Source: a virus. From it: 64,000 bases of DNA. Within the stretch, counting starts at the first letter, position 1, and each line of letters opens with the position of its first letter. The DNA lies in IMG/VR virus record IMGVR_UViG_3300044641_001047, positions 1 to 64,000 of that record, one strand, 5' to 3'. The notes beneath the pieces are model-generated. The model did no database searches and was not told the DNA's origin. It worked only from the letters and a program-made list of their open reading frames with translations. This document shows positions 14,375-54,720 of the stretch, in pieces. The translations under genes were made by a program, and so were the position numbers.

Positions 14375-17300
14375 TTAAAGCATACATATTTGGGTGATGT
14401 CCCCTTTTTTCTCTTCGTCCATTGTGTTATCTAAGAAGACATCTAACTTCTCTATTACAGAATCTATTGGCTTACTTTTTCCTACAACTCTTGGGTAAAG
14501 AGTAGCTCCCCCAACAAGGTGTTTTTTTTCGTTAGTAGTTTTACCTAACACCATATACTTTCCTATTTTTCCATCTTTTGATATACTACCAAGAATATAA
14601 ACATCAGAGTCTGTTTTAGTTCTAACTACAAGAGCTGAAGGAATAGATGAGTATTCTTCTAAATTGATATCAATTTCTTTATCAGGCTTTCCTACTTCAT
14701 CAAAGTTTTTACGTTGTAAAAGGTTACTTCCACCAGGTCTCATCTCCCCAAATATTCTTAGGAATCTAAGCATATCCTCCCCCTCAAAGTACCTACCATT
14801 AGCCATTTTCATTGCCTGCTCATGAAGATAATCAGAAATGCTTATAGGTTCTAGATCTTCAGCGGTTCTATCCATAGGTTGGGTAAGGAATCTTGGGGGT
14901 AACAAGTCTGCAAAGTTAAATGGAGTTTGCTTAAATCCATTGGCAATAAGTGTATGCATTGCTAATTTATTACCTAAAGTCTTGATATCTTCAACTCCTT
15001 TCTTACGTTCAGCTATTTCTTTTTCTGTTGCCCCCTTTCTAAGTCTTGGTAAAAACTTCTCAGGTCTGTACAACATATCAGTAAGGTCATTGATGATTCT
15101 ATCCTTCTCATTTACTGTATACTGTTGCTGAGCATCAAACTGCAAGCTTCTAAAAGTCTTACTATTCTTGTTATCAGGATCTTCAGTAATCTTTACAAAG
15201 AACTCATTACCTGCAAGCTTAGGGTATTTCTTTAAAATCATGGACATCTGCTTAAGCAGTGTTGACTTGTTTTTACTTGTACGATAGTTCTCATCACTAT
15301 ACCCTTTACCAAAAAATGCTTTGAGTGGAGAGTCCTGCCTTGTAAGAATTGTGAATATTATTGCAGAGTTTATATCTCTGTGCTGATCACTTGTAAATGT
15401 ATTAGTAGGTGGAGCTGCTATCTTTCTCAAAGTATTCTTAAATCCTATGAACTCAGATGATAATGTCATTGGGAACAGTATTGATGCTACCCCTAATGTT
15501 TCAGATATCATTTTATAGTAGCCTCTCTGTAATCCATATGGAGAATCTTCATCAAGAACTTGTTCGATTATACTCTCTGACATATTTCTTCCGTATAGAG
15601 CTATAGGGGCATTGTCTACAAATCCATCTTTAGGGTTTGCAAACTTTTCCATTCTCTCCATATAGGCCTGCATAGCTTCTACTCTATTCAAACCATCCAT
15701 GCTATCAGGAGTAATGACCTTAAACATTTCTACAATCTGTCTTCCTCCAGAGTACATCTTCATAAAGTTTCTTAAAGCTACTGCAGGGGGTAGAGTAAAA
15801 TTCATTATATCCTCTCTAGACATTGCAGTAGTCCTTTCAATTCTTTTATAATTATTTGCTATCTCAGTCTCTGGGTTTATACCGTGTAGAGCAGCAGCTT
15901 GACGATACCCATTGTTAACCATTGCAAGGTTATTGTTGTACTTATCAGACATTATGTTTACAAAATCTCTGATGATAGGCTGGTTAAGGAAGAAGTGCAT
16001 TAACTCTGTATCACCGTAGAAATTAATCCATAGAACTTCTACAGGGAAAGTAACTTCATTATCATTGATGATGTAGTGGAATGGATTCTTAGAAGCATCC
16101 ACGGCAGCATTAAGATATCGAGAGATAATTTTATCTGTAAATTCCAAGTGATCGTATGCTGCAAATGGGTTATCTACTTGAGTAAGAAACTTAGTATTTA
16201 TTTTCTCTCCTGCTATCTTAACAGCAAATGAGTCAAATAGATTTATGTCTAAGTGTTGAGCTACATTCCTTCCTGCAAGAGCATTAGACCACTTACCTCT
16301 CAGCTTGTTACCAAGAAGGTTTCTAACAGCACTGTTGGTATGGTACATACCCCCTGTAAACATTGGGATATCTTCAAGGTCAGGCATTTTTTCAAGGATA
16401 CTGTCTTTGATATTACCAAGTGCAGCTGTGTCCAAAGGGCTAAGAGTTTCAGAGAAGTGAATAGGGCTACTGAGTACAGCCTCCATTGTATCAATGAAGA
16501 TATTATTAAGCTGCTTCTCATTTAGTTTTGTAACCAATTCAGGATTGCTGGCAAGTTCTGCATAATTAGCAGATTCTTTAACCATAACCCCATCCTTCAT
16601 GCTAACCTCAGGGAAAAGCAAAAACATTTTATCGACGTCAAAGTCAGATCCCATAAGCTTAACAAGCTGTGGTGGGACTACAATTGCTTTAGCATAATTA
16701 TCAGGTAGGACAGCTTTAATCTTTAGAATAACCATAGATGCCTTATCCTGGTTGGGGATACGATAACCAATAATTCTTCTAAGCTCTTCTGGGATGTTAT
16801 CTAAATTGATCTCCCCTTCAGGTAAGTTAAACTTTCTAAGTACATCAGCTCTTATCATTATCTCTGCATGTGCCAATCTGACTCCATACTTTGTATTGTT
16901 TGGATCATCTTCAATCTCCAAGAACTTAAGGGTTTCATTAGTCTCAAACCCACCAAGAGCTGCAGTCTGCACAGCCTCTGTCCCAGATAGCCTTTGCTTA
17001 AATACATTGTTGTTGTATATGCTAAGCAAAGCTGATTGAAACTTTTTACCAAATACAGGGTAGTCAAGTGGAATTGCAAATCTTGGGATAAGAGTATCAG
17101 GATCTATAGTGATATCAAGAGCATCTAGATAGTTCTGGCTCATATCTCTTTCGATAGCCTGCTTCTCAAGAATGGTACGTATATTTTTAAGCAGTTCTAG
17201 CTTAGCATTTATAAAATCTTCTGAGCTCTTAAGGTGACTGATATTAACCTTACCCTTAACCTTATGCCCTTCTACAAGATTAGCAATTGCTTTACGGAAT

Positions 17301-20300
17301 TTATCTAATCCAATCTCCTTATCTACACTTTCCATATCCCGTCGAATCTTCTCTTCGATGGCATTGTGGTAGATTTGAGTCATTACATCTCCGACAACTT
17401 CTACAGAACCTTCTAGACCTGAGTTATAGTAATAGAGTCCAGCAGGATCTACGTTAGCAATAGAGTTTTTCTTAGCCTGTCTGTTAAAGATTACATCACT
17501 TGTACCTTTAGGATCAGGTATTATCTGTGGGAATCTTAGTTTAGAAGAGTCTTGTTTAATGATTACAACGTCTTCCATCATACCAGGTCTGTACCTTTCT
17601 ACCTCTTGTCCATTCTCATAAACAATCTCAGTATTCTTTGACAGATTGTAAGGCTCAGTCTTTAAACTCTTCTTAGTACTGAATGCATTAAATACATGGA
17701 CAGGCTGCAGATCATTTCTTCCTGCATAAGCCCCAGACAACTCCATACGTTGTCTTACATCATCCATGATTGGGAAGCTTCTTGTATAATCTTCTACAAG
17801 TGGGAAGTAGGCATTCTTCTGAATCTCTGTCAGAAGTACTCCACCTACACTTTTAACATCTTCATAGTAAGGCTTAAGAGGTTTAATGATTACAGGATCT
17901 CCAGCTTTCATTCCTTTAGGGACAAAGTTTTCTTGATATACAATACCTCCAATACTTCCTCTTTTCTTATATGCTCTGAATGCTTCTATCTCATTTTCTC
18001 CCCACTCTCCTAATCCTTCAGCTATGTATCGATACATATCAATACTGATAATAGCCAGACCATCGGTATCTTCAAAGGTGCCAGGGTTATAGCCTAGCAT
18101 GAATGCTATGTCATCATCTGTATATGGGTCTCCAGTCTTAGGGTTAATTATAGATTTAAGTTTTCCCATAGTACGAGATACATACGATTTTGAAAACTCT
18201 TCTATTGCTTTAGTTATATTACCCCTTGGGTCAAGGAATGTAGATTCATTGAATTCTGGGATCATACCATACTCTTCAACTCCGTCAGCTGGTTTTACTC
18301 CGAGTGTACCTCTGATAGCAGTCAATGTACCTGGAGTTCCAAGTAGTCGTTGACGTTTAGTAAAGGCATCTAGAGAAGCAAAAGCAGCTCTGTTACCACG
18401 AGTAAGCTTTATAATTTCTGCAGTCCCTACATCCTCATGAATAATAAACTCTTTTAGAAGACCTTTTATTGTAAGGACTTTCTTCATCACAGCAGTATCT
18501 TCTTTACTCAGTCCTTCCAAAGCTTCTGCTTCATCAGCTTCCTTTAACTTTGAAAACCTTTTAGCTTCTTTAAGATCTACATCCCCATATCTTCCAGACT
18601 GTATAATCTTTTTTGCCATTACTTCTGCAGCTTGATCGTAGAATAGAGTAAGATTTGAAATCATCTGTGACATTAAATTCTCAAACTGCTTTAAATCTCC
18701 AGTAGGAGTTTCACCAGCTTTTTTAACTTTAATGTAATCTTCTACATAGTCAGACATTTTCATCTGAACCCCATTAGATTTAATCATATAGTCCTGGACA
18801 ATCCTTTCACCAGTCTTACTATTAATTCCATCTAATTGCATGTACTTACCTGACCCGTCTATACCAAGCATTTTACCTGTATGATAATCAATAGCTTTAG
18901 TAGCATTTGGATCATCAATAGTCCTTTGAGCTTGTCTGATTCTCAATAGGTCTTGAAGAATCATATCTCTAAATACCAGAGAATTAGTCTTATAGTCTAG
19001 TTTAGTGTTACCATGGCCTCTAAGTCTAGGCATAAGCATAAACTCTAGATCCTCACGGTCTGCTTGAGTTGGAATAGCACAATAGAAATAATCTTCTTTT
19101 CCATTATTTATAAAGTGATACAGCCTTGTAAATATGTGGTCAATAGTATTGAAGTTTCCATATGCTTCTCCCTCTGCCTCATCAGCTCTTTTGATTACGT
19201 CTGCACTTACAGTACGTAGATCACTGAGATATTGAGGGTTTAGGATCATATGTCTATAGATCATACTATATCCATCCGTACCACTTTTATGATCATGAAT
19301 GTGAAATGGGTCAGTCTTTTGCAACTTAAGTGCATTCTCCCCATTCTTCTCTACATCGGTTTTAATATTAATAATTATGTCGTCAACAGGAGTTCTATGT
19401 TGAATAGGCCATATAGCCTTCCCTTCTCCATTAACGTGGCTCTCTGCAGAGTTAGACATAAACAGTGGGGCCAAGCTTCCTAGGAACTTTACACCAGATT
19501 TCTCTGTATCAAAGAATGGTGTTATATCCTTTTTAGTGTCTCCAAAAAGAGGAACCCCTTTAGAGTCTGTCTCAACTTCAACAAAAGAACTAATTATCGA
19601 GTAAAGACCAGAGTTTTCTACGATATAATCGAAGAGGCCTTTACCATTTAATTTTTCAAGACCCTTTTTCTTCTGCCTTACATACATACCTGCACTCATA
19701 AGACTCTGCAGGTTGTCAATTGTCTCATCTATATTGTAGTCATTCCCAAAGTTAATTCCTAAATTCCATAAAGTGTTAGCTAAAGCTATCACTGCTACTG
19801 ATGGCTCCCCTTCTTTACTAGGAAGAAAGTCTTTGTCCTGACTTGATCTCTTCTTACGAATCTCTGAAAGAGTTTTAAATGACTCTTTTACTGCTTCAAG
19901 TTTACTTTTATTTACAGTAAATGTAGATTTATCTTCTCCCTGTTCATTTTCTTCTACATTTTTATTGTATAGGGCTCTACTTTCAGAGTTTTCAATTGCC
20001 TGCCCATCTACTTGTATTGCATTATTTCTCCATTTTCTTACAGCTTTCTGCTCTGTAGTAGTAACATTAGAGTCAAAGATTTTACTCTTCTTCCCCATAA
20101 TTACAATATGTGTCTTATTTACTGTAGTAGCAAAGTTGCTGAACAGTGCAGACTTCTCCTTAGGACTCATTCTTCTTATGCCACGAGCAATAGATTTATA
20201 GTCATCTCTATGCAGGGCAAAGTTTTCAAGCTTTATCATCATTTCCTCAAACGTCCCTGTATCTGACCACAGTTCTAATAGCTGCTTGTATACAAAATTA

Positions 20301-21823
20301 GGATCATGGTATTTAGGACGATTGCTAAATATTGCATTCTTCTTTTCTGTTGTGATAACTTTCCCACCAGACTGCACTGTCTCTGTAATAGGGAAACGAC
20401 GTAGCATTATCTTGACAGCTTGAGATAATCTTTCTTTGTGAGGTCTCTCAATTCTTTGCTGATTATGCAAGTGCTCTTGAGCTTCTTTGGCATCCAGCTC
20501 TCTAATTTCATCGTCCCCTTCTTCAATGTCTACAAGGGTGACTTTTCCACTTTTGATTATATAGCCATAGTTTCTGAGGTTTCTTTCAACCTCATCTCTC
20601 CATGCTCTGGTTATTACGTTGCCTGTCTTAGCCTCATACTTACCCCTCCAGTTATCAATAACTTTGTAGATATACTCTCGAATCTGTCTTTGGTTCTTTG
20701 CAGCAGCCAGATCTTCTTCTGACATACCTTCTACAATTGGAGGGAAGTTGTTTAACTTAAGTCCAAACTTAGCTTTGTGCTCTTTAAAAACTTTAGCAGC
20801 CTCATCCATCTTATCTTTGAACTCAGGCCTCTTAGTATTCTCATAAGCAATTCTGTACTTATTGTATTCTTTTTCTAAAGTAAGTGCCTCTCTGAGTGGA
20901 GTGATATCTTTTCCCTTAGCTTCTCTTCCATCCTTGTATCTATAAAGATGGCTAAGCAATCCATGTACAATAGTTCCAGCAGTTTTATTATCCCCAAGTA
21001 TGAGATTGATATCTGGGTTCTTCCAGTTTTGAATATCCTGAACCACCATATCAGAGATACCTTCTATGATCTCCTCTACAACTTCAGATGGCATTCCCTG
21101 TACGTGCATTTCAGGACTAATGTCACTCTTCATAAGCTCAGGGTTACGAAGAATCTTTCTCCCCAAAAGGTCGTAGTTGGTTTTGCTATTTCTAAGAAGA
21201 GAGTAAGTCTGCTTAAGAGTTACATTATCTGTAAGCATAGCTTTTATGAAATCAAATAGGTCACTAAACCACTGCTTAATCTTCTGTGGAATAGTCTTAC
21301 TGCTTTCTCCCTCTGTAAGCATGTGCATTCTGAATCCTTCAGCCATCTTCTCCTCGAGTACAAGGTTGTAGGCTTCTTCATCAGATATATCGGGGAACTG
21401 ATTCTTTCTAGCTGTTACTTCTTCATCGGTTGGCTTACCAAATTCTCTCGATGTCTCAGCATATAGGAGAGATCTCTGAGCATCAGACAGCATTGTACGG
21501 AACATCAAGTGATATCCCTCGTGGAACTCAGCACCAACCTCTGCAGCCTTCCATACATTAATTGCCCCGTTGGTTACGTGGCCATGCACAATTCTGTTAC
21601 CAATTTGCTTTATGTAGTCGTAATAAAATATTTTATCCTCACCAAAGGTGTTTTTAACCCATGCAGTAGCTTTTTCTCTTCCTATACTTTCTGGAGTTTG
21701 GCCATAAAATTCAAGGGGCACTTCTCCGTTATATATACTCCATAGAGTATACGGATTTTCTACACCAGATTCTACCAGCTCTTTCCATTCAGGAAGACTT
21801 TCAATAGGACAAGATATACCCAT
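14375..21823 (-). CDS. Giant crAss-type virion RNA polymerase with N-terminal HExxH site
   Basis: This 2482-aa protein contains LMGSDFDVDKMFLLFPE with D1727, D1729 and D1731. That matches the D-x-D-x-D metal-binding loop of the single-chain, two-barrel RNA polymerases of crAss-like phages (characterised for phage phi14:2 gp66), which enter the host with the DNA and transcribe early genes. Residues 100-111 read FHEGYHLMFRTM; H101-E102-x-x-H105 plus LEEKMAEGF near 156-164 resembles a gluzincin-type metallopeptidase site, suggesting a protease domain at the front of the polymerase. It lies between two other giant proteins with 2- and 10-base gaps. Length exceeds phi14:2 gp66 (about 2180 aa). The polymerase call is strong; the protease activity is inferred. 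Confidence 0.88.
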   Translation of the reverse strand: MGISCPIESLPEWKELVESGVENPYTLWSIYNGEVPLEFYGQTPESIGREKATAWVKNTFGEDKIFYYDYIKQIGNRIVHGHVTNGAINVWKAAEVGAEFHEGYHLMFRTMLSDAQRSLLYAETSREFGKPTDEEVTARKNQFPDISDEEAYNLVLEEKMAEGFRMHMLTEGESSKTIPQKIKQWFSDLFDFIKAMLTDNVTLKQTYSLLRNSKTNYDLLGRKILRNPELMKSDISPEMHVQGMPSEVVEEIIEGISDMVVQDIQNWKNPDINLILGDNKTAGTIVHGLLSHLYRYKDGREAKGKDITPLREALTLEKEYNKYRIAYENTKRPEFKDKMDEAAKVFKEHKAKFGLKLNNFPPIVEGMSEEDLAAAKNQRQIREYIYKVIDNWRGKYEAKTGNVITRAWRDEVERNLRNYGYIIKSGKVTLVDIEEGDDEIRELDAKEAQEHLHNQQRIERPHKERLSQAVKIMLRRFPITETVQSGGKVITTEKKNAIFSNRPKYHDPNFVYKQLLELWSDTGTFEEMMIKLENFALHRDDYKSIARGIRRMSPKEKSALFSNFATTVNKTHIVIMGKKSKIFDSNVTTTEQKAVRKWRNNAIQVDGQAIENSESRALYNKNVEENEQGEDKSTFTVNKSKLEAVKESFKTLSEIRKKRSSQDKDFLPSKEGEPSVAVIALANTLWNLGINFGNDYNIDETIDNLQSLMSAGMYVRQKKKGLEKLNGKGLFDYIVENSGLYSIISSFVEVETDSKGVPLFGDTKKDITPFFDTEKSGVKFLGSLAPLFMSNSAESHVNGEGKAIWPIQHRTPVDDIIINIKTDVEKNGENALKLQKTDPFHIHDHKSGTDGYSMIYRHMILNPQYLSDLRTVSADVIKRADEAEGEAYGNFNTIDHIFTRLYHFINNGKEDYFYCAIPTQADREDLEFMLMPRLRGHGNTKLDYKTNSLVFRDMILQDLLRIRQAQRTIDDPNATKAIDYHTGKMLGIDGSGKYMQLDGINSKTGERIVQDYMIKSNGVQMKMSDYVEDYIKVKKAGETPTGDLKQFENLMSQMISNLTLFYDQAAEVMAKKIIQSGRYGDVDLKEAKRFSKLKEADEAEALEGLSKEDTAVMKKVLTIKGLLKEFIIHEDVGTAEIIKLTRGNRAAFASLDAFTKRQRLLGTPGTLTAIRGTLGVKPADGVEEYGMIPEFNESTFLDPRGNITKAIEEFSKSYVSRTMGKLKSIINPKTGDPYTDDDIAFMLGYNPGTFEDTDGLAIISIDMYRYIAEGLGEWGENEIEAFRAYKKRGSIGGIVYQENFVPKGMKAGDPVIIKPLKPYYEDVKSVGGVLLTEIQKNAYFPLVEDYTRSFPIMDDVRQRMELSGAYAGRNDLQPVHVFNAFSTKKSLKTEPYNLSKNTEIVYENGQEVERYRPGMMEDVVIIKQDSSKLRFPQIIPDPKGTSDVIFNRQAKKNSIANVDPAGLYYYNSGLEGSVEVVGDVMTQIYHNAIEEKIRRDMESVDKEIGLDKFRKAIANLVEGHKVKGKVNISHLKSSEDFINAKLELLKNIRTILEKQAIERDMSQNYLDALDITIDPDTLIPRFAIPLDYPVFGKKFQSALLSIYNNNVFKQRLSGTEAVQTAALGGFETNETLKFLEIEDDPNNTKYGVRLAHAEIMIRADVLRKFNLPEGEINLDNIPEELRRIIGYRIPNQDKASMVILKIKAVLPDNYAKAIVVPPQLVKLMGSDFDVDKMFLLFPEVSMKDGVMVKESANYAELASNPELVTKLNEKQLNNIFIDTMEAVLSSPIHFSETLSPLDTAALGNIKDSILEKMPDLEDIPMFTGGMYHTNSAVRNLLGNKLRGKWSNALAGRNVAQHLDINLFDSFAVKIAGEKINTKFLTQVDNPFAAYDHLEFTDKIISRYLNAAVDASKNPFHYIINDNEVTFPVEVLWINFYGDTELMHFFLNQPIIRDFVNIMSDKYNNNLAMVNNGYRQAAALHGINPETEIANNYKRIERTTAMSREDIMNFTLPPAVALRNFMKMYSGGRQIVEMFKVITPDSMDGLNRVEAMQAYMERMEKFANPKDGFVDNAPIALYGRNMSESIIEQVLDEDSPYGLQRGYYKMISETLGVASILFPMTLSSEFIGFKNTLRKIAAPPTNTFTSDQHRDINSAIIFTILTRQDSPLKAFFGKGYSDENYRTSKNKSTLLKQMSMILKKYPKLAGNEFFVKITEDPDNKNSKTFRSLQFDAQQQYTVNEKDRIINDLTDMLYRPEKFLPRLRKGATEKEIAERKKGVEDIKTLGNKLAMHTLIANGFKQTPFNFADLLPPRFLTQPMDRTAEDLEPISISDYLHEQAMKMANGRYFEGEDMLRFLRIFGEMRPGGSNLLQRKNFDEVGKPDKEIDINLEEYSSIPSALVVRTKTDSDVYILGSISKDGKIGKYMVLGKTTNEKKHLVGGATLYPRVVGKSKPIDSVIEKLDVFLDNTMDEEKKGDITQICML

Positions 21824-24800: not shown

Positions 24801-27800
24801 AATCATCAGGCGTCTCTTCTTCTTCCGTTTCAAAACTTTTTGAATTGAATATATCTTGTGTTTCTCCAGTTTCTATGAATACTGGGTTGTCAATTATTTC
24901 AGGGAGTAATGGTGCTACTTCATTTACGTCCACTGTTTCGCCTTCAGGTACTTGAACAGCTCCTTGATTCGTTGTTCCAGATCCTTGTTCTTGAGCAAGT
25001 TGCGAAGCTCTTTGGGAGTCTTGTACATCTTTGCTAGCTTGACTTGATTTTCTATATTCATACTCTTCGGTTAACTTGTTTTTATGACTCTGTTGAATTT
25101 CTCTTTCAGCTCTTGCAACTTCTAAATCTTTTGTAAGCTTTTCAATCTTTTCTCCGTTTACAGGAGAAGCCATTCCTAGTTTTATACTTGCATCTAATGC
25201 TGCAATTTGCTGCTCAAGCCCTATAATAGTTTCGTTTGCAAGATCGATTAAAAGTTCAGCTTCCCCAATTTTATTTTTAATTTCATTCTCAGCTTCCTCA
25301 GACATTTGACCACCTTGATCTTCCGTAGGTTCACTAACAGGAGACAACTGTGTTCTTTTAAAGTAATCTTTAGTTATGGCTTGGAATGCTTTAAGAGTTG
25401 TAGAATACATTGCTCTTGCTCTCTGCACATCTGGATCTTGGTTCATTTCGGCCATGGTCTTACCCTGCCTCATGAACTTCTCCTTAGCCATATTATAAAC
25501 AGAAAGGATGTCAAGAAGATGAGTTCTATGACTATCCATCAACTTCTGTAAAGCTTTATCAGTTATAACATTAGGATCGTACTTAGCCTTACTTCTTAAT
25601 GCCTCAGATAAATTTTGCAATGCATTAAGTCTAGATTGAATCTGCTTTCTAAGTTCTACTTCACTAAGTCCTAAGCTTTCTATAGTTCCTTGAGACTGAT
25701 AAGCCATCAGGATTATCTCTGCAAGTTCTTTTGCAACAGTATCTTTAAACTCAACTGTTTGGTTTTGCTCATTGTGCAGTACTACTTGAGATACTATAAT
25801 AGAACCTGTAAGAGCACTAGCGGGTTTATATTCTGTTATACCCTCTGTCTTAATATCTTCTAGCATCTGTGGATAAGATGCAGCATGCCTATCTATTGTC
25901 TCATCGGATACATTTGCTCTGTTAACTCCTGCTGCGATATCTGCTTTTATTCTTTGTTTAGCTAATTCAGCATTTAAAGGCATTAACTTATACTGAATAT
26001 TAGCACCAGGTATTGCTTTTTTAACAGCCTCTATAAACGGTCTTCTTTTTTCTTTAGTTAAATTGGTGGTATCAAATACCACCTGTTTACCATTCTTCAC
26101 AGCTTCTACTGCTCTTTTAGCAGCTTCAATGTAAATTTCTTTATCTTTAGATTTATCATTTATATCTCCTGTAAACTCAGCTCTCATATCATCAGGAGAA
26201 ATAACTACTAAATTTTCTTGAGGTAAACTTTTTATAAAAGTAGATTTCCCACTTCCAGAAGTTCCTATAGGTAAAATAATATCAGCTTTAGTAGTCGTAG
26301 AGGTGCTGCTTGTTTTAGGTTTAGAAGAAGTAATCTTTTTACCTAATTGTTGTTCTACATGCTTTCCAATTATGTCAACAAATTCATTTGCTAACTGATT
26401 AGTAAGTGCAGCATATCTTTTTTCTACAGCTACAGTTCTTCTATCAGCAGAAGATATATCAGTAGTATTTATTTTACTTAACTCTCCTGCTAAAGGTCTT
26501 AATGCATCTAGTCTTTTTTTATCCTCTTCACTAAGAAAATCAAACTCATTAAGATTTAAGTCTGCTAATACAATTAAATTATCAGCAACTTTTCCCATTG
26601 AAGCTTTAAAAGCATTTAATCTACCTTTAGGCCTAGCTCCTTCATAAAAATCAGATGGCAATACTACTTTAGCATTTCCATAGCCATCTAATCTTTCATT
26701 AAGTCCTTCTATAGGTGTTTTTGTGTTATCATCTGCAGCAGGAGTTTCAGACTGCATGTCCCATTCATAGCCATACCTAATAGCATCTACTGGGTTTTCA
26801 TTAAGGTTCTGATATACTGTCCCGTTAACTCTTATTGTTCTTCCATCGGTACTAAGTAATGCAAAGCTATTTTCATAAACCTTCCCACTTAAATCTGGAT
26901 CTGCTTTCTCATCAGCTTCTTCAGAGAATCCTTTCTTAAGTGCATCTTCTGCTTCTTTCTTAGCAGCTGCTTCAGCAGGAGTTAACTCTCCTTCTTTTAT
27001 ATCTTTCTGCTCAAGACTTTCATTTTTCTTAGCTTCAAGAACAGCAAGTAGTGCTGCAGCTTTAGCAGGAGATTCTTCTTCAATACTTTCAATATCTGCA
27101 ACTAACTCTTCAAGAACCTCCAGTGGGATGTCTTGATAGTCTTTCATGTACTTATCCTCTATAGCCTTAAGCTCTTTATATTTCTTTCTAACCTTAGCTT
27201 TCATTTCAGGACTAAGGTTTTCATGATCTATAAGTTCATCAAGTTCTCTAGTAGAATCTGCATTGTCAACAATTGAGTCAGCTTCTTTATTTGACTTTGC
27301 TACTTTAGCTCGTTGCTCAGCAGCTTGTTTAGCAGCTAGAACAATTTCTCTTTTTTCTGGAGATTTTATCAGCTCGTCAAATGCAGTAGATGCAAGTTCT
27401 CTTGTATATATTCCTGTAATAAAGTCAGCAAGAGCCTTATCAAAGTCCATCTTCTGCAGCTTATCTAAGGTTTCAGATTCTTCTACTGCTGTCCTAAGAG
27501 CTCCAGTTAAACTTTCATTCTCTTTAATATTCTTCTTCTTTGCAGCCTCTTCCGTGGTTGGGTCAGGCTTTGGTTCCCCTTCTTTCTTCTCTTGCTCCTC
27601 TACATCACTAACACTTACGTCAACCAAAGATTTAGGGAGAACTAGATTACCCTGTGCATCTGCTGTTATTTGGTTTCTTTTTATTAGAGTTACAAGTTTA
27701 TTTCTGTCAAAATTTTTAAGAGCTGGAGATAGAGATACTAGTTTTTCATATGCATCGTTAATCTCCTCATCTCTAGTCTCCATACTAATCATGTTAGTAA

Positions 27801-29767: not shown

Positions 29768-32059
29768 TTAAAACTTTATTTTTCCTGTTCCTACTATTTG
29801 CTGTACATCTGGATCGTCGATTGCTCTAAACATTGTACTTGGGTTTCCATTTGCACTTTGGAATATAGGAGCACCTAAGTCATCAGAGAAACTTATTGTT
29901 GGATTATTATCTCCAACACTTCTAATAGTTAGTTTTCCAGGTACCTCTCTTGTATAAGTTTGATTCGTAAGCCTGTCTACTTCAGATTTTTCTATATAGA
30001 TATCTCTAGTGTAAATTTTAGGATTATTTACATTCCCACCTCTTGGGGCTTCCATTTGAACTACACTAGCAAGTATAACAGTTGGGTCACTAAGCTTTCT
30101 TAAAATTGGCAAGTTAGCAGTTAAGTAAGCCCCATCTACGTGTACTGTCTTGAATTTATTAACAGCATCTGGATTTTTAGTTTCTAGGATCATTTCCCAC
30201 GTATTGGTATTTGGATCCCATCCGTAATCTTTAACTACGAATCCATCTAGTATAGCAGGATTTGTTATCTTTTGTCCTGCAGATACGTCGTAAGCAGTAG
30301 GAATTGCTACAGCACTTATTGACTTTCCTAGTAAAAAGTCATCTAGAGCTTTTGTAATGGCTATATTTTCCTGGGCATTACCAGTTTGAATTGTTCCATA
30401 GTTGAATACAGAAGATGTTTTAATCTCTGCAAACTTTGCATCAATTTTATCTTTATATACAGATTTAAATTTGTCTACAACTACTTCCGAAGTATTTAGT
30501 TGTTCACCTATAGTTGCATCATAGTTATAGGTTCCTGTACCATATAAGTGAGCTTCAAGTGCTGTAGCACCGTATTTACTATTAAATATTTTCTCGAAGT
30601 CTTTATAATCTTGATCGTCTTTATTATCAAAGGTCGTTAAAATTCTCTGGTATATTTCACCTGGAGATGCCCCTTGCATTTGATCTTTAAATATACTTAC
30701 AATTTTAGGATCTTGTTTTTCCAAATCATCCATAGAAATAGAAGAGCCAGAGGCTTCATTTATTAAGTATTTCTGGTGATTTATCTTTGCAGTATTTGCT
30801 CTTTTTTCGGCAAGCAAGTTTTCTTTTTGTTTTTGAGATAGATTACTTCCTGGACCTACTTCTATGTCGATGTCCCTATTTCTAGCTTCTAGAGAGGAAA
30901 TGGTTTGCATTTTTTCACTAAGTGTTGCCCCACCTACCATATTTGCTGTTACCTCAGAATTTTTATAGATTGGTACATTGTTCTTAGCTGCCTCCATAGC
31001 TTCTTTTCTACGTTCCATGTAAATAGGATCATACTCGTATATAGTACTAGACTTAGTATTTTTATATGCATACTGCATTGCTAAATCCCTTGTAGGATTA
31101 ATTATCTCCTGTTCTATTTTGGATTTTACGTAATTATAAGATGTAGTAGGATCTTTAGCTGCTTCTGTGGCACTGTTTATCTCAGACTGCATTATATTTA
31201 TAGCCTTTTGATACTGTGCTTTTTCAGAAGCAGACATCGTTTTAGAAGCCATCTCTTTCTTATAACCTTCTATTATTTTACCATACTGGTCAATTGTAGC
31301 CTGTATGGTTTGTGGCATAGCTCCTGATTTTTGAATATCATATGTCCTCATATCAGCTTTTTGCTGAACGGCCATTTTAACATCAGGATCAGCCATTACA
31401 TAGTCAAAAGCTTTTTGAACCTCTTCTGGGGTAACCTGTTCAACTCCGTATTCGTTAGTTACTGTATACTTTCCGTCAGGTCCTACCGAAAGTTTGTTAC
31501 TTTTATTGTCGTACTTATCTGGTTTTATAATAGCTAAAGCTTTTGTTAGCTTATCCATTACATCTACATCATTGTAGATGGTAGGGGCAGAAAACATTGA
31601 ACCCTCTTTTACTCTTCCAGTATTAGGATCCATCTCGAATCCTTTATAGTCTCTGGTTATATATGAACCAGATCTAGCATAGGTTTCAGCATCAATGCTT
31701 TTCTTATCATACCTATCTTGTAGATCCTTTAGAGCAGCTTGATATCTATCGTAGTTTTCTTTTATAGGGGCATACTTTTTACTAAAATCTTTTGCTGCTC
31801 TGTGTACAGCAAACCCAAGATTCTCATAGTCACCTCTCTCTGATAGAGATGTTAGAGTTTTATCTATCTCACCCTGCAGTTCTTTTTTTCTATTAACATC
31901 ATTCTCAAATGGCAAAGCAGCCTGCATTTGATCTACTGCCAAGGCTAACTCATCATTTGCTTTAAAATTATCTAGATACCTATTACGTAGTATTTCAGAG
32001 ATCTTTACAGATTGAGGATCTACATAAGTACTGACATACTCACCAAACTGATACGGCAT
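29768..32059 (-). CDS. Putative cargo / ejection protein
   Basis: This 763-aa protein has no recognised domain. The first 150 residues are highly helical (for example RNRYLDNFKANDELALAV), as is the middle (about 250-420), consistent with coiled coils; the C-terminal third is more beta-like. No signal peptide or clear membrane segment is seen. It lies 1 base from the 2646-aa gene and 5 bases from the 999-aa gene, within the row of giant genes that in crAss-like phages encodes proteins carried in the capsid and tail. Cargo function is inferred from position. Confidence 0.65.
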   Translation of the reverse strand: MPYQFGEYVSTYVDPQSVKISEILRNRYLDNFKANDELALAVDQMQAALPFENDVNRKKELQGEIDKTLTSLSERGDYENLGFAVHRAAKDFSKKYAPIKENYDRYQAALKDLQDRYDKKSIDAETYARSGSYITRDYKGFEMDPNTGRVKEGSMFSAPTIYNDVDVMDKLTKALAIIKPDKYDNKSNKLSVGPDGKYTVTNEYGVEQVTPEEVQKAFDYVMADPDVKMAVQQKADMRTYDIQKSGAMPQTIQATIDQYGKIIEGYKKEMASKTMSASEKAQYQKAINIMQSEINSATEAAKDPTTSYNYVKSKIEQEIINPTRDLAMQYAYKNTKSSTIYEYDPIYMERRKEAMEAAKNNVPIYKNSEVTANMVGGATLSEKMQTISSLEARNRDIDIEVGPGSNLSQKQKENLLAEKRANTAKINHQKYLINEASGSSISMDDLEKQDPKIVSIFKDQMQGASPGEIYQRILTTFDNKDDQDYKDFEKIFNSKYGATALEAHLYGTGTYNYDATIGEQLNTSEVVVDKFKSVYKDKIDAKFAEIKTSSVFNYGTIQTGNAQENIAITKALDDFLLGKSISAVAIPTAYDVSAGQKITNPAILDGFVVKDYGWDPNTNTWEMILETKNPDAVNKFKTVHVDGAYLTANLPILRKLSDPTVILASVVQMEAPRGGNVNNPKIYTRDIYIEKSEVDRLTNQTYTREVPGKLTIRSVGDNNPTISFSDDLGAPIFQSANGNPSTMFRAIDDPDVQQIVGTGKIKF

Positions 32060-32064
32060 AGCTT

Positions 32065-35064
32065 TTAGATATTAAATGTTTTTTTACCCTTTGATAATTG
32101 GCCGAGACGACTTGTATATTTTCTAGCTCCCCCCATCTTTTGAGTATTCTTATCCTCTTCTTCTTTTTTACCAAACATGCTTTGATTAACAGTATTAGAA
32201 GCAATCTTTTTCAATTTATCATCACTCATACCATAGTAAGGAGAGTCTTTTCTTTTAGATTCTCTTTTAAGATTCTCGTAAACAGTCCTACGATTGTATG
32301 ATCCTGTTTCATCAAGTGCATCAGCAAGACGTTCTTGAGCTCTATAGGATCTCTCATCTTTAACAATACCAGCAATACGGCCTGCTGCTTTATCTAAAGC
32401 ACCAAGAATCTCTTCCCTCTTATATCTCTTCTCATCAATCTTCAATTTAGCTTCTTGAATACCAGCTTCAAGATTAGCTTTATTAACTGCAAGTCTATTT
32501 TCTACATTAGCCATGTTAGCTCTTTGGGCCATAGCTGCATTAGTTGTAGATGCCTCTTGTCCAAGCTTTGCTTCTTCTGCAGCAAGTTGCTTATTAGCTT
32601 CTTGCTCTTGATTAGCAATTGTAAGCATCTGAGTATTTTGTGCTGTATTAGCAGCCATCATAGCAGCTATACCTCCAGGACCTGCATTGGTATTTTGAAT
32701 TGCATTTTTAATTGCTACAGTATTTCTTTCTGCTGCAGCTCTTTCAGCATTCATATTAACTCTAGGAAGAATGGCACCTCTAACACTACCAGCTCCAACA
32801 TTTCCTCCACCTACCATTCTAGGGAGATTACCTTCGGTCTTATATTTATTAAATAATGCATATCCTACAGGAACTAATTGTCCAAGACCTGCAAGTAAAG
32901 AACCGTTAATTCCTCTTCTAGTATCTGCTACTTGTAAATCAGTAGTTTTTTCAGATTTTGGTAAGCCTGTATCTTTAGTTAAGTCTATTTCAGCTTTTTT
33001 AATAGGCTCGTCTAATCCTCCTTTTGTTGGTATATCTTTTAGATTTGCTACATAAAGTCTAGATGTAGCAGTCTGCTCACCAAATTTACCATCTTCTTTA
33101 AGTTTTTCCCCACTTCTAACTCGGCTATTATATTCTTTTTGGAAGTTTAGAACTTGATCTTTATTAGAAGGATCAAAGTTTGAAAAGTCAAACCAAGGAT
33201 TAGCAGCCTTCATATCTGCATATTGTGCCTCAGTAACATTTCCGTAGAATTTAGCACCTTCATGTTGACCACTAGGAACTCCCTGCATAGATGTACTTGT
33301 ACCATATTCACCTGCTGCAAGAGGTCGTGTTCCTTCTGGGAATCCTGCAGTTTGGTATGTTTTAACCATACCACTATTAGTAGTACGTTTGCCAGGAGCA
33401 GCAGACTGTTGATCACGTGGAGCCATAGCATTAGCTTTATTAACATCTCTAAGTGTTACATTAGCTGCATCCATGTTAGATTGGGCCATAGCTGATTGTT
33501 CTGGTCCAGCCATTTTGTAATGGTGAATACCACCATAAGCTGCTATTTGCTCAGGGCCTCTATCTGGTTCTTTCTTGCTAGCTACAGCTTCTTGCATTTT
33601 AGCAAGTCTTTGGATGTCTGCCTGACTGCCACCAGATTTTAGAATCTCTTTATGTCTTTTAGCAAATGACTTACCACCAAGTTTAAGGTAAGATGAGAAG
33701 AAGTAATCATTAGGCTTACCACCATTCATCATTACCTGATCCATAGTCTCTCCACCTTCTACTTCAGTTTTAGGATCAATCATTATTCCTCCTTGAGAGT
33801 GTTTTCTTCCAACAAACTCTACTGCATCAGAACCTTTGATAGGGACAATTTGTCCCCCTGGAACTTTTCTAGCTCCACCAGTTTCTCCATAGAAAGAACT
33901 AGTAGGCTGCATGTTCATATTAGTTGAAGTATTGTACCCAAAGCCAGTTTGCATTCCCATAAGTCTAGATCCAGTAAATGCTTGATTATATCTTTGGGCT
34001 AAGATATCTTTCTGCTTTGTAAGCTCTGCTTTTCTTTTTCTTTCAGCTTCTGCTCTTTCTGCTTCAAGTCTTCTTTGCTCTTCAGCGTATTCATCAGCAA
34101 TTCTTTTAGACTCTTTGTTTTCTTTTCTTGCCTTAATCAATCCACCTATTGCTCCTACTGCTCCACCAATTATTGCTCCTCCTACTGTTCCTATTGGACC
34201 ACCAGCACTACCGATTATAGATCCCAGTGCTGCTCCTCCTCCAACTCCCGCACCAGCAACTTTCATTGCTTCTCCTAGTGTATTTCTTCTCCCTTCTTTT
34301 CCAGTAAATGTAGTAGGGTCATTATCGTCTCCACTTTTTTCAACTAACATTCCCCCAATATTTAAACCTAGGCCAATACCTGCAGTTGCTAATCCAGTTC
34401 CTATGCTAGCTCCTGTACCAGCTACATTTGCACCTGTACTAGCGGCAGTTGAACCTGCTGTATTAGTTAGTCCAGGTACAATTACATTTCCAACATCATC
34501 CACAAGTTGGGTAGCCGCTGCACTTGCCATTCCAGAACCACTTGCTGCAGCTGTTGATAAAGCAGGAGTAGCTGCATTAATAGCTGTAGGGGCTGCTGAA
34601 CTTACTCCACTAGCTATTGCAGAGGTGGCTCCAGTAGTTAGTGCATTAGTAGCAGTTTTTGTAGCAGCTTCCTCTGCAGCTTTTTGTGCAGCTTTTTGTT
34701 TAAAGTAGCTTGTAGTTAACTCTAGTCCTGAGGTTAGCCCAGATGAAAGAGAGGAATTAACTTCTTGTTGATTAGCAAGTTTTGTCTCAGCTTTAACTTG
34801 ATCTAAAGCTGCTTTTTCACTTGCTTCTCTTGCTTTTCTATCTGCATCTACTTTAATTTGTTCAGCAGCTGCAAAGTCCCCTAAGGATATAGCTTCTTTA
34901 TAAGCTCTGTCAGCCTCTTGTGCAGATTGCTCAGAGAAAGTACCACTTATATAGTAAGGATTGGCTACTTGTTGATAGGTTGAAGAGTTAGCTCCAGCGA
35001 ACTGATACTTCTTAACTAATTGTTTAGTAGCTGGTTTAGATTTAGTTATGGTTTTTCTAGCCAT
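32065..35064 (-). CDS. Cargo protein with glycine-zipper membrane segment and peptidoglycan-binding-like repeat
   Basis: This 999-aa protein has an alanine-rich helical N-terminal third. A long glycine zipper follows at about 268-308 (GGGAALGSIIGSAGG and GGAIIGGAVGAIGGLI), the kind of segment that packs or forms pores in membranes, then a charged coiled coil rich in E, R and A. Residues 636-672 (VLNFQKEYNS ... EDGKFGEQTATSRLY) fit the PG_binding_1 pattern. Short elements such as GGIHHYKMAG, VKTYQTAGFPEGT and GGARKYTSR recur. As the first cargo gene after the muzzle candidate, it may help DNA or cargo cross the envelope. The domains are recognised by eye and the role is inferred. Confidence 0.72.
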   Translation of the reverse strand: MARKTITKSKPATKQLVKKYQFAGANSSTYQQVANPYYISGTFSEQSAQEADRAYKEAISLGDFAAAEQIKVDADRKAREASEKAALDQVKAETKLANQQEVNSSLSSGLTSGLELTTSYFKQKAAQKAAEEAATKTATNALTTGATSAIASGVSSAAPTAINAATPALSTAAASGSGMASAAATQLVDDVGNVIVPGLTNTAGSTAASTGANVAGTGASIGTGLATAGIGLGLNIGGMLVEKSGDDNDPTTFTGKEGRRNTLGEAMKVAGAGVGGGAALGSIIGSAGGPIGTVGGAIIGGAVGAIGGLIKARKENKESKRIADEYAEEQRRLEAERAEAERKRKAELTKQKDILAQRYNQAFTGSRLMGMQTGFGYNTSTNMNMQPTSSFYGETGGARKVPGGQIVPIKGSDAVEFVGRKHSQGGIMIDPKTEVEGGETMDQVMMNGGKPNDYFFSSYLKLGGKSFAKRHKEILKSGGSQADIQRLAKMQEAVASKKEPDRGPEQIAAYGGIHHYKMAGPEQSAMAQSNMDAANVTLRDVNKANAMAPRDQQSAAPGKRTTNSGMVKTYQTAGFPEGTRPLAAGEYGTSTSMQGVPSGQHEGAKFYGNVTEAQYADMKAANPWFDFSNFDPSNKDQVLNFQKEYNSRVRSGEKLKEDGKFGEQTATSRLYVANLKDIPTKGGLDEPIKKAEIDLTKDTGLPKSEKTTDLQVADTRRGINGSLLAGLGQLVPVGYALFNKYKTEGNLPRMVGGGNVGAGSVRGAILPRVNMNAERAAAERNTVAIKNAIQNTNAGPGGIAAMMAANTAQNTQMLTIANQEQEANKQLAAEEAKLGQEASTTNAAMAQRANMANVENRLAVNKANLEAGIQEAKLKIDEKRYKREEILGALDKAAGRIAGIVKDERSYRAQERLADALDETGSYNRRTVYENLKRESKRKDSPYYGMSDDKLKKIASNTVNQSMFGKKEEEDKNTQKMGGARKYTSRLGQLSKGKKTFNI

Positions 35065-40945: not shown

Positions 40946-41842
40946 TTATAGAATTCCGTAGTTAGTATATCTTCCTCTATCTAAAGTCTCTCTAGTTCCA
41001 AGGTTTTCAAAGAAGTTAGCATGTCTGTTGAGGTTAGGAACAAGACGAACCCACTGGTTCATGAATGATTCGTACTTATCAATGCTTGGGAAGTTAGATT
41101 GGTTTCTAGCTTGTGAGCAGTAGAACTTCCACTTGTTATCAGCAAAGTCATACCCGATACCGTTCATAGATGGGGTATATCCTCCAAGCAACATCTGCTT
41201 GTATACATACCAGAATAAAGCTTCTTTAAAGCTTACATTATCTGGGATCATTGGGTAGCAGTCTTCATCAATTGGGAATGCAGTGTAGCTTAAGCATACA
41301 GCTCCGTCTTGGAATGAAGTCTTAATGTAATCCCCATCGATGGTATAGTTAGGCTTAACTACACCGTATAGGTTCTTACAATCTTCACATTCTAAACTGT
41401 TAGAGAATGTGGTAGTTCCATATTGCAATGGAGTAAGTGGTTGACCTGTATTCATGTACAGGTTCTCAAGCACAACTATCCTAGAGTTTAACTCTCTAAG
41501 TTGATAGTTATATGCAATCTTATCGTTTGGGTCAGATACGATTTGAGCATTTAAAGTCTTTACTTGATCTAATAGTTCAGTAAGCTCTACAGATATAGAA
41601 GGGTTAACAGAGTTGTTAACTGCTACTTGCTGTACATAGTAGAGGTCCATTGGGAGTAGAGCCTTAAAGTTCTTAATAGGCAAAACACAGCCCTTTTGAC
41701 TGAGCTGTGGTGCAGAGCCTATATGCTCTAATGCTTCCCCCATCCATTCTACTGCATCATCAATCCAGTTATCTCCAGGAGGTTTTAAGTCCCTCATAAC
41801 TTTTCTGATAATGACCTTACTTGATATTAGTTTGTACAGCAT
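40946..41842 (-). CDS. Conserved structural protein, ring or tail adaptor candidate
   Basis: This 298-aa protein ends 2 bases before the muzzle candidate. It begins with a basic helical stretch, then DAVEWMGEALEHIG, a long helix near 88-130 (ELLDQVKTLNAQIVSD), a cysteine pair in SLECEDCKNLYG and the aromatic segment EALFWYVYKQMLLGGY near 208-223. The close of the protein, YESFMNQWVRLVPNLNRH, is basic. This pattern recurs in crAss-like and related Bacteroidota phages beside the tail genes, and a ring or adaptor protein of the neck is inferred. A second ATG 15 codons in is a possible start. Confidence 0.55.
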   Translation of the reverse strand: MLYKLISSKVIIRKVMRDLKPPGDNWIDDAVEWMGEALEHIGSAPQLSQKGCVLPIKNFKALLPMDLYYVQQVAVNNSVNPSISVELTELLDQVKTLNAQIVSDPNDKIAYNYQLRELNSRIVVLENLYMNTGQPLTPLQYGTTTFSNSLECEDCKNLYGVVKPNYTIDGDYIKTSFQDGAVCLSYTAFPIDEDCYPMIPDNVSFKEALFWYVYKQMLLGGYTPSMNGIGYDFADNKWKFYCSQARNQSNFPSIDKYESFMNQWVRLVPNLNRHANFFENLGTRETLDRGRYTNYGIL

Positions 41843-42357: not shown

Positions 42358-42930
42358 TTAATCAAAGCATATCTCTCCTCTGTTGCATTTACCAATGTTC
42401 TTTCTAGCTTTTTTGGTACGTTTAACATTAGGCCCTGTATCACGAGTTCCTGATGAACCCTTCTTCGGTTTCTTTGGACCCATAGCCTCCATCATATCCA
42501 TACCAGCATCGTTAGCACTAGTAGAATCAGACATGCCACCAAGACCTTTTTTGCCTGCAGCAGCCATTTCTTGAAACTTAGATTTGCCATACTTTTTTCT
42601 TCCTATAGAAGCAGCAATAGCTTTAGCAGAATCTTCCGATTTACCTTTACCTTTAAGTTTGCTAACCATAGCAGCAAATCTTCCACCACCACCTGGCTCC
42701 ATAGACTTGCCACCAGACTTCTTCATATCTACACCTCTACCTTTCAATACGTCTGCTTTGGTTACTTTACCATCACCAGTAAGGTCAGGGAATCCACCTG
42801 CTTTATACTTCATTCCACCATAGCCTTTTTTCATCAGCTTGTTTCCAAAAGTAATTTCTTTTGACTCCTCCATGAAGGAGCTTTTCTTTTTAGAGGACTT
42901 CTTGCCTCCCTTTTTATACATTGGTACCAT
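42358..42930 (-). CDS. Basic glycine-rich protein with EF-hand-like loop
   Basis: This 190-aa protein is strongly basic and rich in K, G and S. Residues 49-60 (DLTGDGKVTKAD) have the D-x-[ST]-x-D-G-x-[IV]-x-x-x-D spacing of an EF-hand or dockerin calcium loop. Around it lie GGMKYKAGGFP, a motif shared with larger structural proteins here, and SFMEESKEITFG (18-29), nearly repeated in the next gene upstream. A later helical unit contains AKAIAASIGRKKYGKSKF. It ends in a cysteine-containing tail (GKCNRGEICFD). A DNA-contacting minor virion protein is plausible, but no named family is recognised. Confidence 0.55.
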   Translation of the reverse strand: MVPMYKKGGKKSSKKKSSFMEESKEITFGNKLMKKGYGGMKYKAGGFPDLTGDGKVTKADVLKGRGVDMKKSGGKSMEPGGGGRFAAMVSKLKGKGKSEDSAKAIAASIGRKKYGKSKFQEMAAAGKKGLGGMSDSTSANDAGMDMMEAMGPKKPKKGSSGTRDTGPNVKRTKKARKNIGKCNRGEICFD

Positions 42931-53295: not shown

Positions 53296-54720
53296 TTACG
53301 ATGCAGTACATTGAAGGTCAAGGCTAGTATCGAAACGACGAAGTAGGATACCAGCAGTCTTCAACATATGAACAGAAGCACCGTCTATGTCACTTGCACG
53401 AGTGTCAGTTTCTGTGAATCCTTTTGGAACAACAGAACCTGCTACACACCAGCGCAGAAGTTCACGACCTTTCTTATTTACCATTTGCAGGTTGTTCTCA
53501 CCATCATAAGTAGACTGGTCAACAAAAGTCATACGGTAAGACTCAAGTGGAAGACCAGTTACTGGGTGCTTCTTAGAAGCTTGAGCCACAGGACCGTGAT
53601 CGAACAAAGGAGATTTAACTACATTAACTCTGTGACCATCTACGTGATCGTAGCTAGTGAAGTAACCAGTAATACCGAGGTTACGACCGCTACCAGTGAT
53701 GAACGTAGGTTGAGTGGTCTGGAGGTAAGTGTTTGCACCATAGTATGACTTAAGTGCTTTATCGAATTCACGAGCACCACCAATACCAGTGTACAAAGTA
53801 ACTTGCTTGTCAGTAGCATCAGTCATACCATAGAACAAGTCTCCGATAGTCTCCTCAAGTTTAGCTTGAGTAAGAGTAGAGTAAGTGTCTTTGTTGATGA
53901 TCTGCTCAAACAAACCAGGACCAGAGATTACAGGTTGACCGTTCTCATCGAGCATAGTGCTAACACCATTAGCATCGTGAGTCTTCTGGCCATACCAGTA
54001 GTACATTTCACACTCTTCTTTAAACTTAAGCATGTGACGGTACTCTTCGTAATCCATCCACAACTTAGTCTTAGAACCCTCTTTCAAAGGCAATTCGAAC
54101 TGAGCTACATAGTCTTTAGCATTTCCAGAGAAGTGGTAAGACTTACGTACAGTACCAATCTTAGAACGAACAAGACCTGGAGCAGTCCAGTTAGATGCAT
54201 TACCACGTGAGAAGTCAATACCCACGTTAGCATACAACATACCCCAAAGAGCACCTGGAGAAGCATCTGCAACAGATACTGAAGCAGTATCAGGAGATAC
54301 AATCTTCAAAGTGTATTTCCAACCAGCACCATCAGCTACTGGCTCGTTCATAATACGAGCAAGAACACCAGACTGAGATACCAAGGTGTAAGGGAAAATG
54401 AACCACTTATCAGGGAAGGTAAGGGTGAATGGGGCACCACCTGCACCAACTGCAGCACCAGGTGCAGCAGAGACAACAGGACGAACATTGATTTCGTGTG
54501 TTTTAACACGATACTCATACTCGAAACGGTCGATAGAACGAGTATTGCCGACACCTTCAGTCAAGAAGGAGAGTGGGAATTTCTTTTCTTCACGACCTGC
54601 CAAGTGAGTGATAATCGGAGACAACTCCGCTGGACGTTCCATAAGTGCATTTGCCAACGAGTTACTGTCGGTCATCTGCGAATCGTTATAGTACGTCTTA
54701 AGTACTTGCATTAATGACAT
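53296..54720 (-). CDS. Major capsid protein
   Basis: This 474-aa protein is the main shell protein of the head (HK97 fold expected for the group). It opens MSLMQVLKTYYNDSQMTDSN. Supporting points are the length, its position after the acidic scaffold-like gene, the composition, and segments I associate with crAss capsid proteins such as KLWMDYEEYRHMLKFKEECE and MYYWYGQKTHD near 225-256. Codon choice is strongly biased (CGT, AAC, ATC, TTC), as expected for the most abundant phage protein. A terminator hairpin follows its stop. No maturation cleavage site could be placed. Confidence 0.82.
   Translation of the reverse strand: MSLMQVLKTYYNDSQMTDSNSLANALMERPAELSPIITHLAGREEKKFPLSFLTEGVGNTRSIDRFEYEYRVKTHEINVRPVVSAAPGAAVGAGGAPFTLTFPDKWFIFPYTLVSQSGVLARIMNEPVADGAGWKYTLKIVSPDTASVSVADASPGALWGMLYANVGIDFSRGNASNWTAPGLVRSKIGTVRKSYHFSGNAKDYVAQFELPLKEGSKTKLWMDYEEYRHMLKFKEECEMYYWYGQKTHDANGVSTMLDENGQPVISGPGLFEQIINKDTYSTLTQAKLEETIGDLFYGMTDATDKQVTLYTGIGGAREFDKALKSYYGANTYLQTTQPTFITGSGRNLGITGYFTSYDHVDGHRVNVVKSPLFDHGPVAQASKKHPVTGLPLESYRMTFVDQSTYDGENNLQMVNKKGRELLRWCVAGSVVPKGFTETDTRASDIDGASVHMLKTAGILLRRFDTSLDLQCTAS

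Follow-up and report, generated by a model that had tools for sequence, protein, structure and literature searches.

A short aromatic and glycine box at the termini and module joints of C1-type cargo proteins and other proteins of crassviruses

Encapsulin cargo-loading peptides are short tags carried by unrelated cargo proteins of an HK97-fold shell, usually at a terminus and on a flexible linker. The capsid targeting sequence of phage T4 is a short signal at the N-terminus of otherwise different internal head proteins and is cleaved by the prohead protease, while polymorphic toxins combine a conserved carrier module with exchangeable modules. Here we describe a short linear box in a stretch of virus DNA of 64,000 nucleotides (the window; positions 1 to 64,000 of IMG/VR record IMGVR_UViG_3300044641_001047, which totals 76,496 bases), in which a sequence-only reading had noticed a recurring motif, GG-x-[RKH]-x-Y-[QKT], in three otherwise unrelated proteins of 999, 1048 and 190 amino acids (aa). 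A described counterpart of the first is gp45 of phage crAss001, the cargo protein C1. According to the available part of its cryo-electron microscopy account, gp45 residues 425-552 are portal-bound and residues 214-245 line the tail barrel; mass spectrometry of virions detected peptides of gp45, as well as gp47 (Bayfield et al. 2023, PMC10172136).

The window encodes a crassvirus major capsid protein at 53296-54720 (Crass_capsid, PF23898, 1.5e-82) and, in the open reading frame (ORF) at 40946-41842, a protein matching CrAss_Ring_1 (8.6e-60). On the strength of the capsid protein match it is assigned to the crassvirus phages. A comparison of annotated phages with window DNA 24000-46000 gave no match. 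ORFs were called throughout with a simple caller written for this analysis.

All seven strings listed in the sequence-only reading were located, four in the 999-aa, two in the 1048-aa and one in the 190-aa protein. The motif as worded there holds for part of them: four of the listed copies match it strictly and the other three fail, the 190-aa copy being one residue short and two 999-aa copies lacking the leading GG. Strict matches number four in 41 window proteins, all in the 999-aa and 1048-aa proteins, against a shuffle mean of 0.09 (four reached in 0 of 500 shuffles). This count is post hoc, the motif having been picked after inspection, and the motif was therefore tried on other sequence. 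In 16 other contigs, two of which had come from the motif search itself, it was found 13 times where 1.7 were expected, with none of 100 shuffles exceeding 5. For a relaxed form, [KR]Y[QEKT].[GA]G, there were 28 occurrences and 3.4 expected, and no shuffle exceeded 9. A position matrix built on 34 motif instances revealed a repeat of the unit in the upstream context, so that the full motif consists of two overlapping copies of [KR][YFM]xxGG. When this matrix was applied to contigs outside the pattern-found set, 51 matches against 8 in shuffled sequence were obtained at a score of at least 10, and 24 against 2 at a score of at least 15. The shuffles preserve per-protein composition and not local glycine clustering. 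As controls, scrambled cores and other spacings are preferable. Recurrence of a short motif is confirmed and is stronger than originally stated. The motif is one version of a short linear box, [KR][YFM]xxGG, often present as the overlapping tandem GGx[KR][KR]YQxGG. In the box, a positively charged residue and an aromatic one precede two free positions and two glycines.

At the DNA level, GG[IM]KKYQ.GG with restricted codons returned 2 stretches only; this was too narrow, and the pattern was therefore widened to one coding for GG-x-[KR]-[KR]-Y-Q-x-GG. Scanned over IMG/VR, the wider pattern found 41 stretches, with the match in frame within an ORF in 41 of 41. Bacterial and archaeal genomes totalling 257 Gb gave 25 stretches with the same pattern, 3 of them in frame, and two scrambled cores found 5 and 3 stretches in IMG/VR (3 of the 8 in frame). 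The crassvirus capsid family was detected in 29 of 40 source records of the real motif versus 0 of 8 for the scrambled cores; the 41st stretch, L060, was omitted, having entered via its capsid match. Each of the 11 records lacking the capsid family is 15.3 kb or shorter, and every one of the 22 records that reach 16 kb was positive, a threshold fixed after the result was known. For the family scan, 34 of the 41 loci found by the pattern were used, L156, L175, L176, L178, L182, L184 and L186 being set aside as presumed repeats of listed proteins. The box is nearly specific to phages with a crassvirus capsid protein. Control loci, themselves selected for GG-rich DNA, show a mild excess of the shorter core [FY]xxGG (37 versus 27.6 expected in 184 proteins of 25 bacterial or archaeal loci; 12 versus 9.4 in 8 scrambled-core viral loci). 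A loose form, [KRNH].[FY]..[GA]G, was rejected as a genome-wide detector; with whole proteomes it rose barely above shuffles in many genomes.

After masking of the motif, BLAST at 1e-3 groups the 34 carrier proteins into 14 components, and the motif codons differ synonymously across 32 distinct 30-mers. Together with the low confidence of the AlphaFold segments that hold the boxes (pLDDT, the predicted local distance difference test score, below 50), this upholds the earlier view of a linear motif rather than a domain. Because of the in-frame matches, the capsid co-occurrence, the masked components and the synonymous codons, we take the motif to be a protein-level linear motif that is close to diagnostic for one phage group. 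The codon variation between instances also weakens a DNA-level account, in which the repeated coding sequence is a recombination crossover site and encodes the peptide only incidentally. Inserts with repeated boxes on either side would fit that account, which we regard as very improbable.

We counted [KR][YFM]xxGG per protein family in 14 close relatives, with the window excluded. Related contigs are non-independent, and the family ratios are therefore descriptive. The 999-aa, 1048-aa, 190-aa and 79-aa families together hold 48 boxes versus 4.9 expected, and the remaining late or structural genes 6 versus 8.2. None was found in the capsid, portal, auxiliary, ring or terminase proteins of these relatives. 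The motif had been described as spread over structural proteins; it is in fact confined to a few families. Equal frequency in non-structural proteins, which the sequence-only reading had named as counting against it, was looked for and is not seen, with 0 boxes in early genes versus 1.2 expected. Unassigned proteins hold 9 versus 2.2, two of these being large proteins that adjoin the 1048-type gene in genomes G026 and G022. Two further box proteins, at G058 31651-34569 and G044 25189-27462, have a zincin-like site and, by eye, an HG...C cysteine-peptidase-like region.

The features of the 999-aa protein are as follows.
32065-35064, minus strand: the 999-aa C1-type cargo protein, a box carrier and crAss001 gp45 homologue (blastp, profile-profile comparison, AlphaFold).
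34993-35013, minus strand: N-terminal box KKYQFAG, aa 18-24 (family alignment).
33853-33879, minus strand: GGARKVPGG, aa 396-404, an insertion site (family alignment).
33565-33837, minus strand: segment aa 410-500, which aligns with the portal-bound gp45 segment 425-552 (blastp).
33505-33534, minus strand: box GGIHHYKMAG, aa 511-520 (string search, family alignment).
33343-33363, minus strand: box KTYQTAG, aa 568-574, immediately ahead of the exchangeable module (string search, blastp).
33004-33318, minus strand: exchangeable module aa 583-687, phrog_36695 (PHROGs).
32101-32133, minus strand: C-terminal box GGARKYTSRLG, aa 978-988, with GGARKYT at 978-984 (family alignment).

Alignments of this protein with gp45 were obtained by blastp at aa 427-512 (2.6e-4) and aa 800-875 (7.7e-4), and by hhalign profile-profile comparison over the C-terminal helical part (E 4.8e-6). 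By this homology, which takes in the counterpart of the portal-bound segment, it is identified as a Crassvirales C1 (gp45) cargo protein; a place inside the virion, on portal and tail barrel, is known for crAss001 only and is putative for the window protein. A sequence comparison with solved structures gave chance matches only. The N-terminal box, as KKYxx[AG]G, is present in 10 of 12 aligned homologues, L007 being truncated by the contig end and L123 lacking an aligned segment. The C-terminal box, GG..Y[TV]S[RK][LF]G, is present in all 11 rows of the 12-row alignment that have a C-terminus; the strict spacing GGx[RK]xY holds in 8 of these, with one residue more or fewer in the other 3. Between the two, the box at aa 396-404 is interrupted in L101, L106 and L121 by an inserted module, and beyond an internal box relatives have a DUF2272 domain (4.4e-10) where the window has the phrog_36695 segment. 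L153, another C1-like protein, has after the box a phage-lysozyme match that is weak and below cut-off (0.0074). The AlphaFold prediction for the 999-aa protein, made with 12 sequences, has a mean pLDDT of 46.5, and pLDDT stays under 50 in the segments that hold the boxes at aa 18, 511, 568 and 978; the boxes probably sit in disordered segments.

The 1048-aa family is built in a comparable way.
55951-59097, minus strand: the 1048-aa protein, with a conserved N-module, a variable centre and a conserved C-tail (family alignment, AlphaFold).
58675-59097, minus strand: conserved N-module, aa 1-141 (Pfam, alignment, AlphaFold).
58669-58686, minus strand: junction box RMQKGG, aa 138-143 (alignment).
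58000-58038, minus strand: tandem box KFNSGGIRKYQTG, aa 354-366, with GGIRKYQ at aa 358-364 (string search).
56140-58668, minus strand: variable centre, aa 144-986, missing or replaced in relatives (family comparison).
56119-56139, minus strand: box GGVREYQ, aa 987-993, ahead of the C-terminal region, which is conserved (string search).
55996-56013, minus strand: box RYIKGG, aa 1029-1034 (alignment).
55954-55995, minus strand: conserved Lys/Arg-rich C-tail, aa 1035-1048 (alignment).

The junction GG is present in 28 of 28 members that have the position in a 31-member alignment, and 30 of the 31 have a GG within their last 30 residues, mostly followed by the Lys/Arg-rich tail. What lies between varies. 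In L045 (151 aa) the N-module is joined to the tail via one box, and L013 and L080 (186 aa) have a short segment between two boxes at a place where the window protein has about 850 residues. The centre of one relative is a Glucosaminidase domain (5.2e-7). The gene itself is hypervariable with conserved ends, and L045, L013 and L080 are natural empty-site relatives. The window's own central module has a single near-identical relative, and no function is therefore claimed for it. A tblastn search for phages related to the 1048-aa protein found none, and PHROGs and Pfam gave scattered matches on the motif carriers. AlphaFold predicts one confident helical unit in the 1048-aa protein, aa 1-47 (pLDDT about 97), with the boxes below 50. 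The N-module from aa 51 to 137 is weakly DUF192-like (PF02643 score 22.2 versus a gathering score of 27) and has no confident AlphaFold fold; PF02643 exceeds the gathering score in relatives L149 and L169. The label of head protein given earlier to the 1048-aa protein is not borne out, this weak DUF192 match being all that Pfam returned and PHROGs giving no match. In several members, L031, L032, L046 and L048 among them, the C-terminal box takes the variant form GGxxCYTC with two cysteines, which may be metal- or disulfide-related.

Two features were placed in the smallest of the three window carriers.
42358-42930, minus strand: the 190-aa small box protein (string search, family count).
42793-42819, minus strand: box GGMKYKAGG, aa 38-46 (string search).

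Directly after this box, at aa 47-67 (42730-42792, minus strand), is an EF-hand-like element of 21 residues. It has a counterpart of 90.5% identity in gp44 of Pelagibacter phage HTVC027P, which is not recorded as a crassvirus, and is a second shared short element.

Boxes are found near both termini of C1 proteins and at the joints of modules that are inserted, lost or exchanged. Several of the modules so joined, and most of those identified, are related by sequence match to peptidoglycan-active enzymes. A glycine-rich box of low pLDDT at a joint might be a pure flexible spacer, that is, a hinge for module movement and threading that has no partner. The fixed aromatic and basic positions, the two-residue spacing, the copies at termini (which need no spacer) and the near-specificity to one phage group all speak against this, and we consider it rather unlikely.

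To extend the comparison to gut crassviruses, 18 C1-region proteins were inspected, of which cr8_1a has no GG and was omitted from the counts. The remaining 17 contain [FY]xxGG 46 times versus 7.75 expected, a number reached in 0 of 1000 shuffles; spacings of 0, 1, 3 and 4 gave 17, 17, 26 and 14 versus about 7.7. Elsewhere in three gut phages, 208 ORFs gave 21 versus 26.5. The gp45 protein is homologous to the 999-aa protein and has [FY]xxGG boxes beside its portal- and tail-bound segments: those with GG at 209-210, 427-428 and 562-563 border the resolved segments 214-245 and 425-552. The two differ in form, the box of the window lineage being KYQxGG and that of gp45 FxxGG. crAss001 and crAss002 share a 76-aa module (68% identity), and this block starts and ends at or near GG boxes; by eye, it seems to stand in a different order with respect to the portal segment. 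The profile-profile comparisons of C1-type proteins display the best segment only, and both this changed order and the duplication in DAC15 were read by eye. The latter is an apparent tandem duplication of a box-bounded C1 module in Bacteroides phage DAC15 (L286 2425-4923). Cellulophaga phi17:2 gp41 (L270 37463-40150) is C1-like, with [FY]xxGG boxes and a GGKKR end, in a record not placed under Crassvirales. Neither the boxes nor module exchange is described in the available part of the gp45 account (PMC10172136).

The gut proteins also bear on whether the Lys/Arg-Tyr-Gly boxes are nucleic-acid patches, acting like RGG repeats on packaged head DNA. Their basic, aromatic and Gly-rich composition would suit such a role, as would the near-terminal GG, mostly with a Lys/Arg-rich tail after it, of 30 of 31 members of the 1048-aa family. 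However, gut boxes such as FADGG, FAEGG and FAYGG carry little charge, and the three crAss001 boxes named above border tail- and portal-bound segments, not DNA. We find this explanation quite improbable.

The sequence-only reading had also raised the option of a processing site. In such a case a virion or host protease would cut at GG and free the modules during maturation or after ejection. GG sites in adenovirus and asfarvirus virion proteins are cut, and the position of the boxes at termini and module joints would be apt. A HExxH motif is present in the 1520-aa and 2482-aa window ORFs and in crAss001 gp47, which is found in virions by mass spectrometry; since a packaged HExxH protein exists, cutting elsewhere in the box or after ejection could still take place. 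Cutting right after GG is disfavoured, in that Pro is the commonest residue to follow the box GG, at 22 of 134 contexts (16%, the P1' position) versus 38 of 834 where GG stands elsewhere in the same proteins, and Pro after GG blocks most endopeptidases at that bond. For the gut proteins the figures, 3 of 46 after boxes versus 6 of 165 after other GGs, are too few to tell. In addition, gp45 peptides and the two docked segments, which flank several boxes, are present in the crAss001 virion according to the available part of PMC10172136, and the accessible part of another account reports virion bands up to above 300 kDa and mentions no cleavage (PMC6235969). Processing at the boxes thus seems improbable. 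Separately, the window HExxH motifs lie in giant late ORFs at 9802-14364 (aa 238) and 14375-21823 (aa 101), the second resembling that of gp47 by eye.

The reading we favour, at slightly less than an even chance, is that the box is a crassvirus docking and hinge motif at the module joints of virion cargo; its anatomy is well supported, and the docking is what we infer. The basic and aromatic residues would grip a crassvirus-specific virion surface, such as the portal wing, the tail lumen or the capsid interior, and the glycines would let the chain turn. Repeated boxes might in this way tether a flexible cargo chain ready for ejection, to be threaded out later through the tail, with modules being exchanged between docking points. 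As the modules are joined at boxes, we propose that new effector modules could be acquired without loss of the tether. A wider form of the idea is possible, although we lean against it: a plug-in joint common to crassviruses and near relatives, made of a carrier end, an aromatic-x-x-Gly-Gly box, any effector module, a further box and a conserved tail, in which the box would dock modules in a portal, tail or capsid cargo zone and enzymes would be swapped like cartridges.

Several observations weigh against the docking and hinge reading. The large ORFs of the RNA polymerase region hold 0, 3 and 2 boxes versus 0.7, 1.75 and 0.8 expected, a slight excess at most, and the 763-aa protein holds 1 versus 0.45, no clear excess. 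A universal packaging tag is unlikely on these counts, and the box marks neither structural proteins nor cargo in general. Virion residence of the 1048-aa and 190-aa families is putative. The remaining gp45 boxes border no resolved segment, and boxes may adjoin ordered segments simply because linkers do. The boxes of gut crassviruses are looser, with only aromatic-x-x-GG kept, and three-residue spacing ([FY]...GG) is raised too, at 26 versus 7.7 in the gut and 24 versus 10.5 in the freshwater proteins, perhaps partly through GGG.

In its working, a docking box would come closest to the encapsulin cargo-loading peptides or to the capsid targeting sequence of T4. It resembles the former in being a short linear motif common to otherwise unrelated proteins, here the 34 carriers in 14 components, and differs in having multiple and internal copies, in a tailed phage with a crassvirus capsid; nor is it on all cargo, given the RNA-polymerase-region ORFs and the 763-aa protein. 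With the T4 signal it shares brevity and occurrence on otherwise different proteins, and is unlike it in its terminal and internal copies and in the frequent Pro at P1'. We do not class it with either tag, because shell binding is putative here and part of the cargo has no box. Polymorphic toxins share the conserved carrier with exchangeable modules; here, in contrast, both ends are conserved, the joints are marked by a repeated linear box and the identified modules are mostly related to peptidoglycan-active enzymes. No published description of the box was found in searches of open-access literature.

Crassviruses, which load and eject many proteins, dominate many human gut viromes. A tag by which cargo-type proteins can be told from their DNA alone offers a means of listing cargo in thousands of uncultured genomes. 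For gp45, the box predicts tether points that can be looked for in existing maps. It also points to a hypervariable gene between the portal and capsid genes that seemingly holds exchangeable, partly cell-wall-degrading modules.

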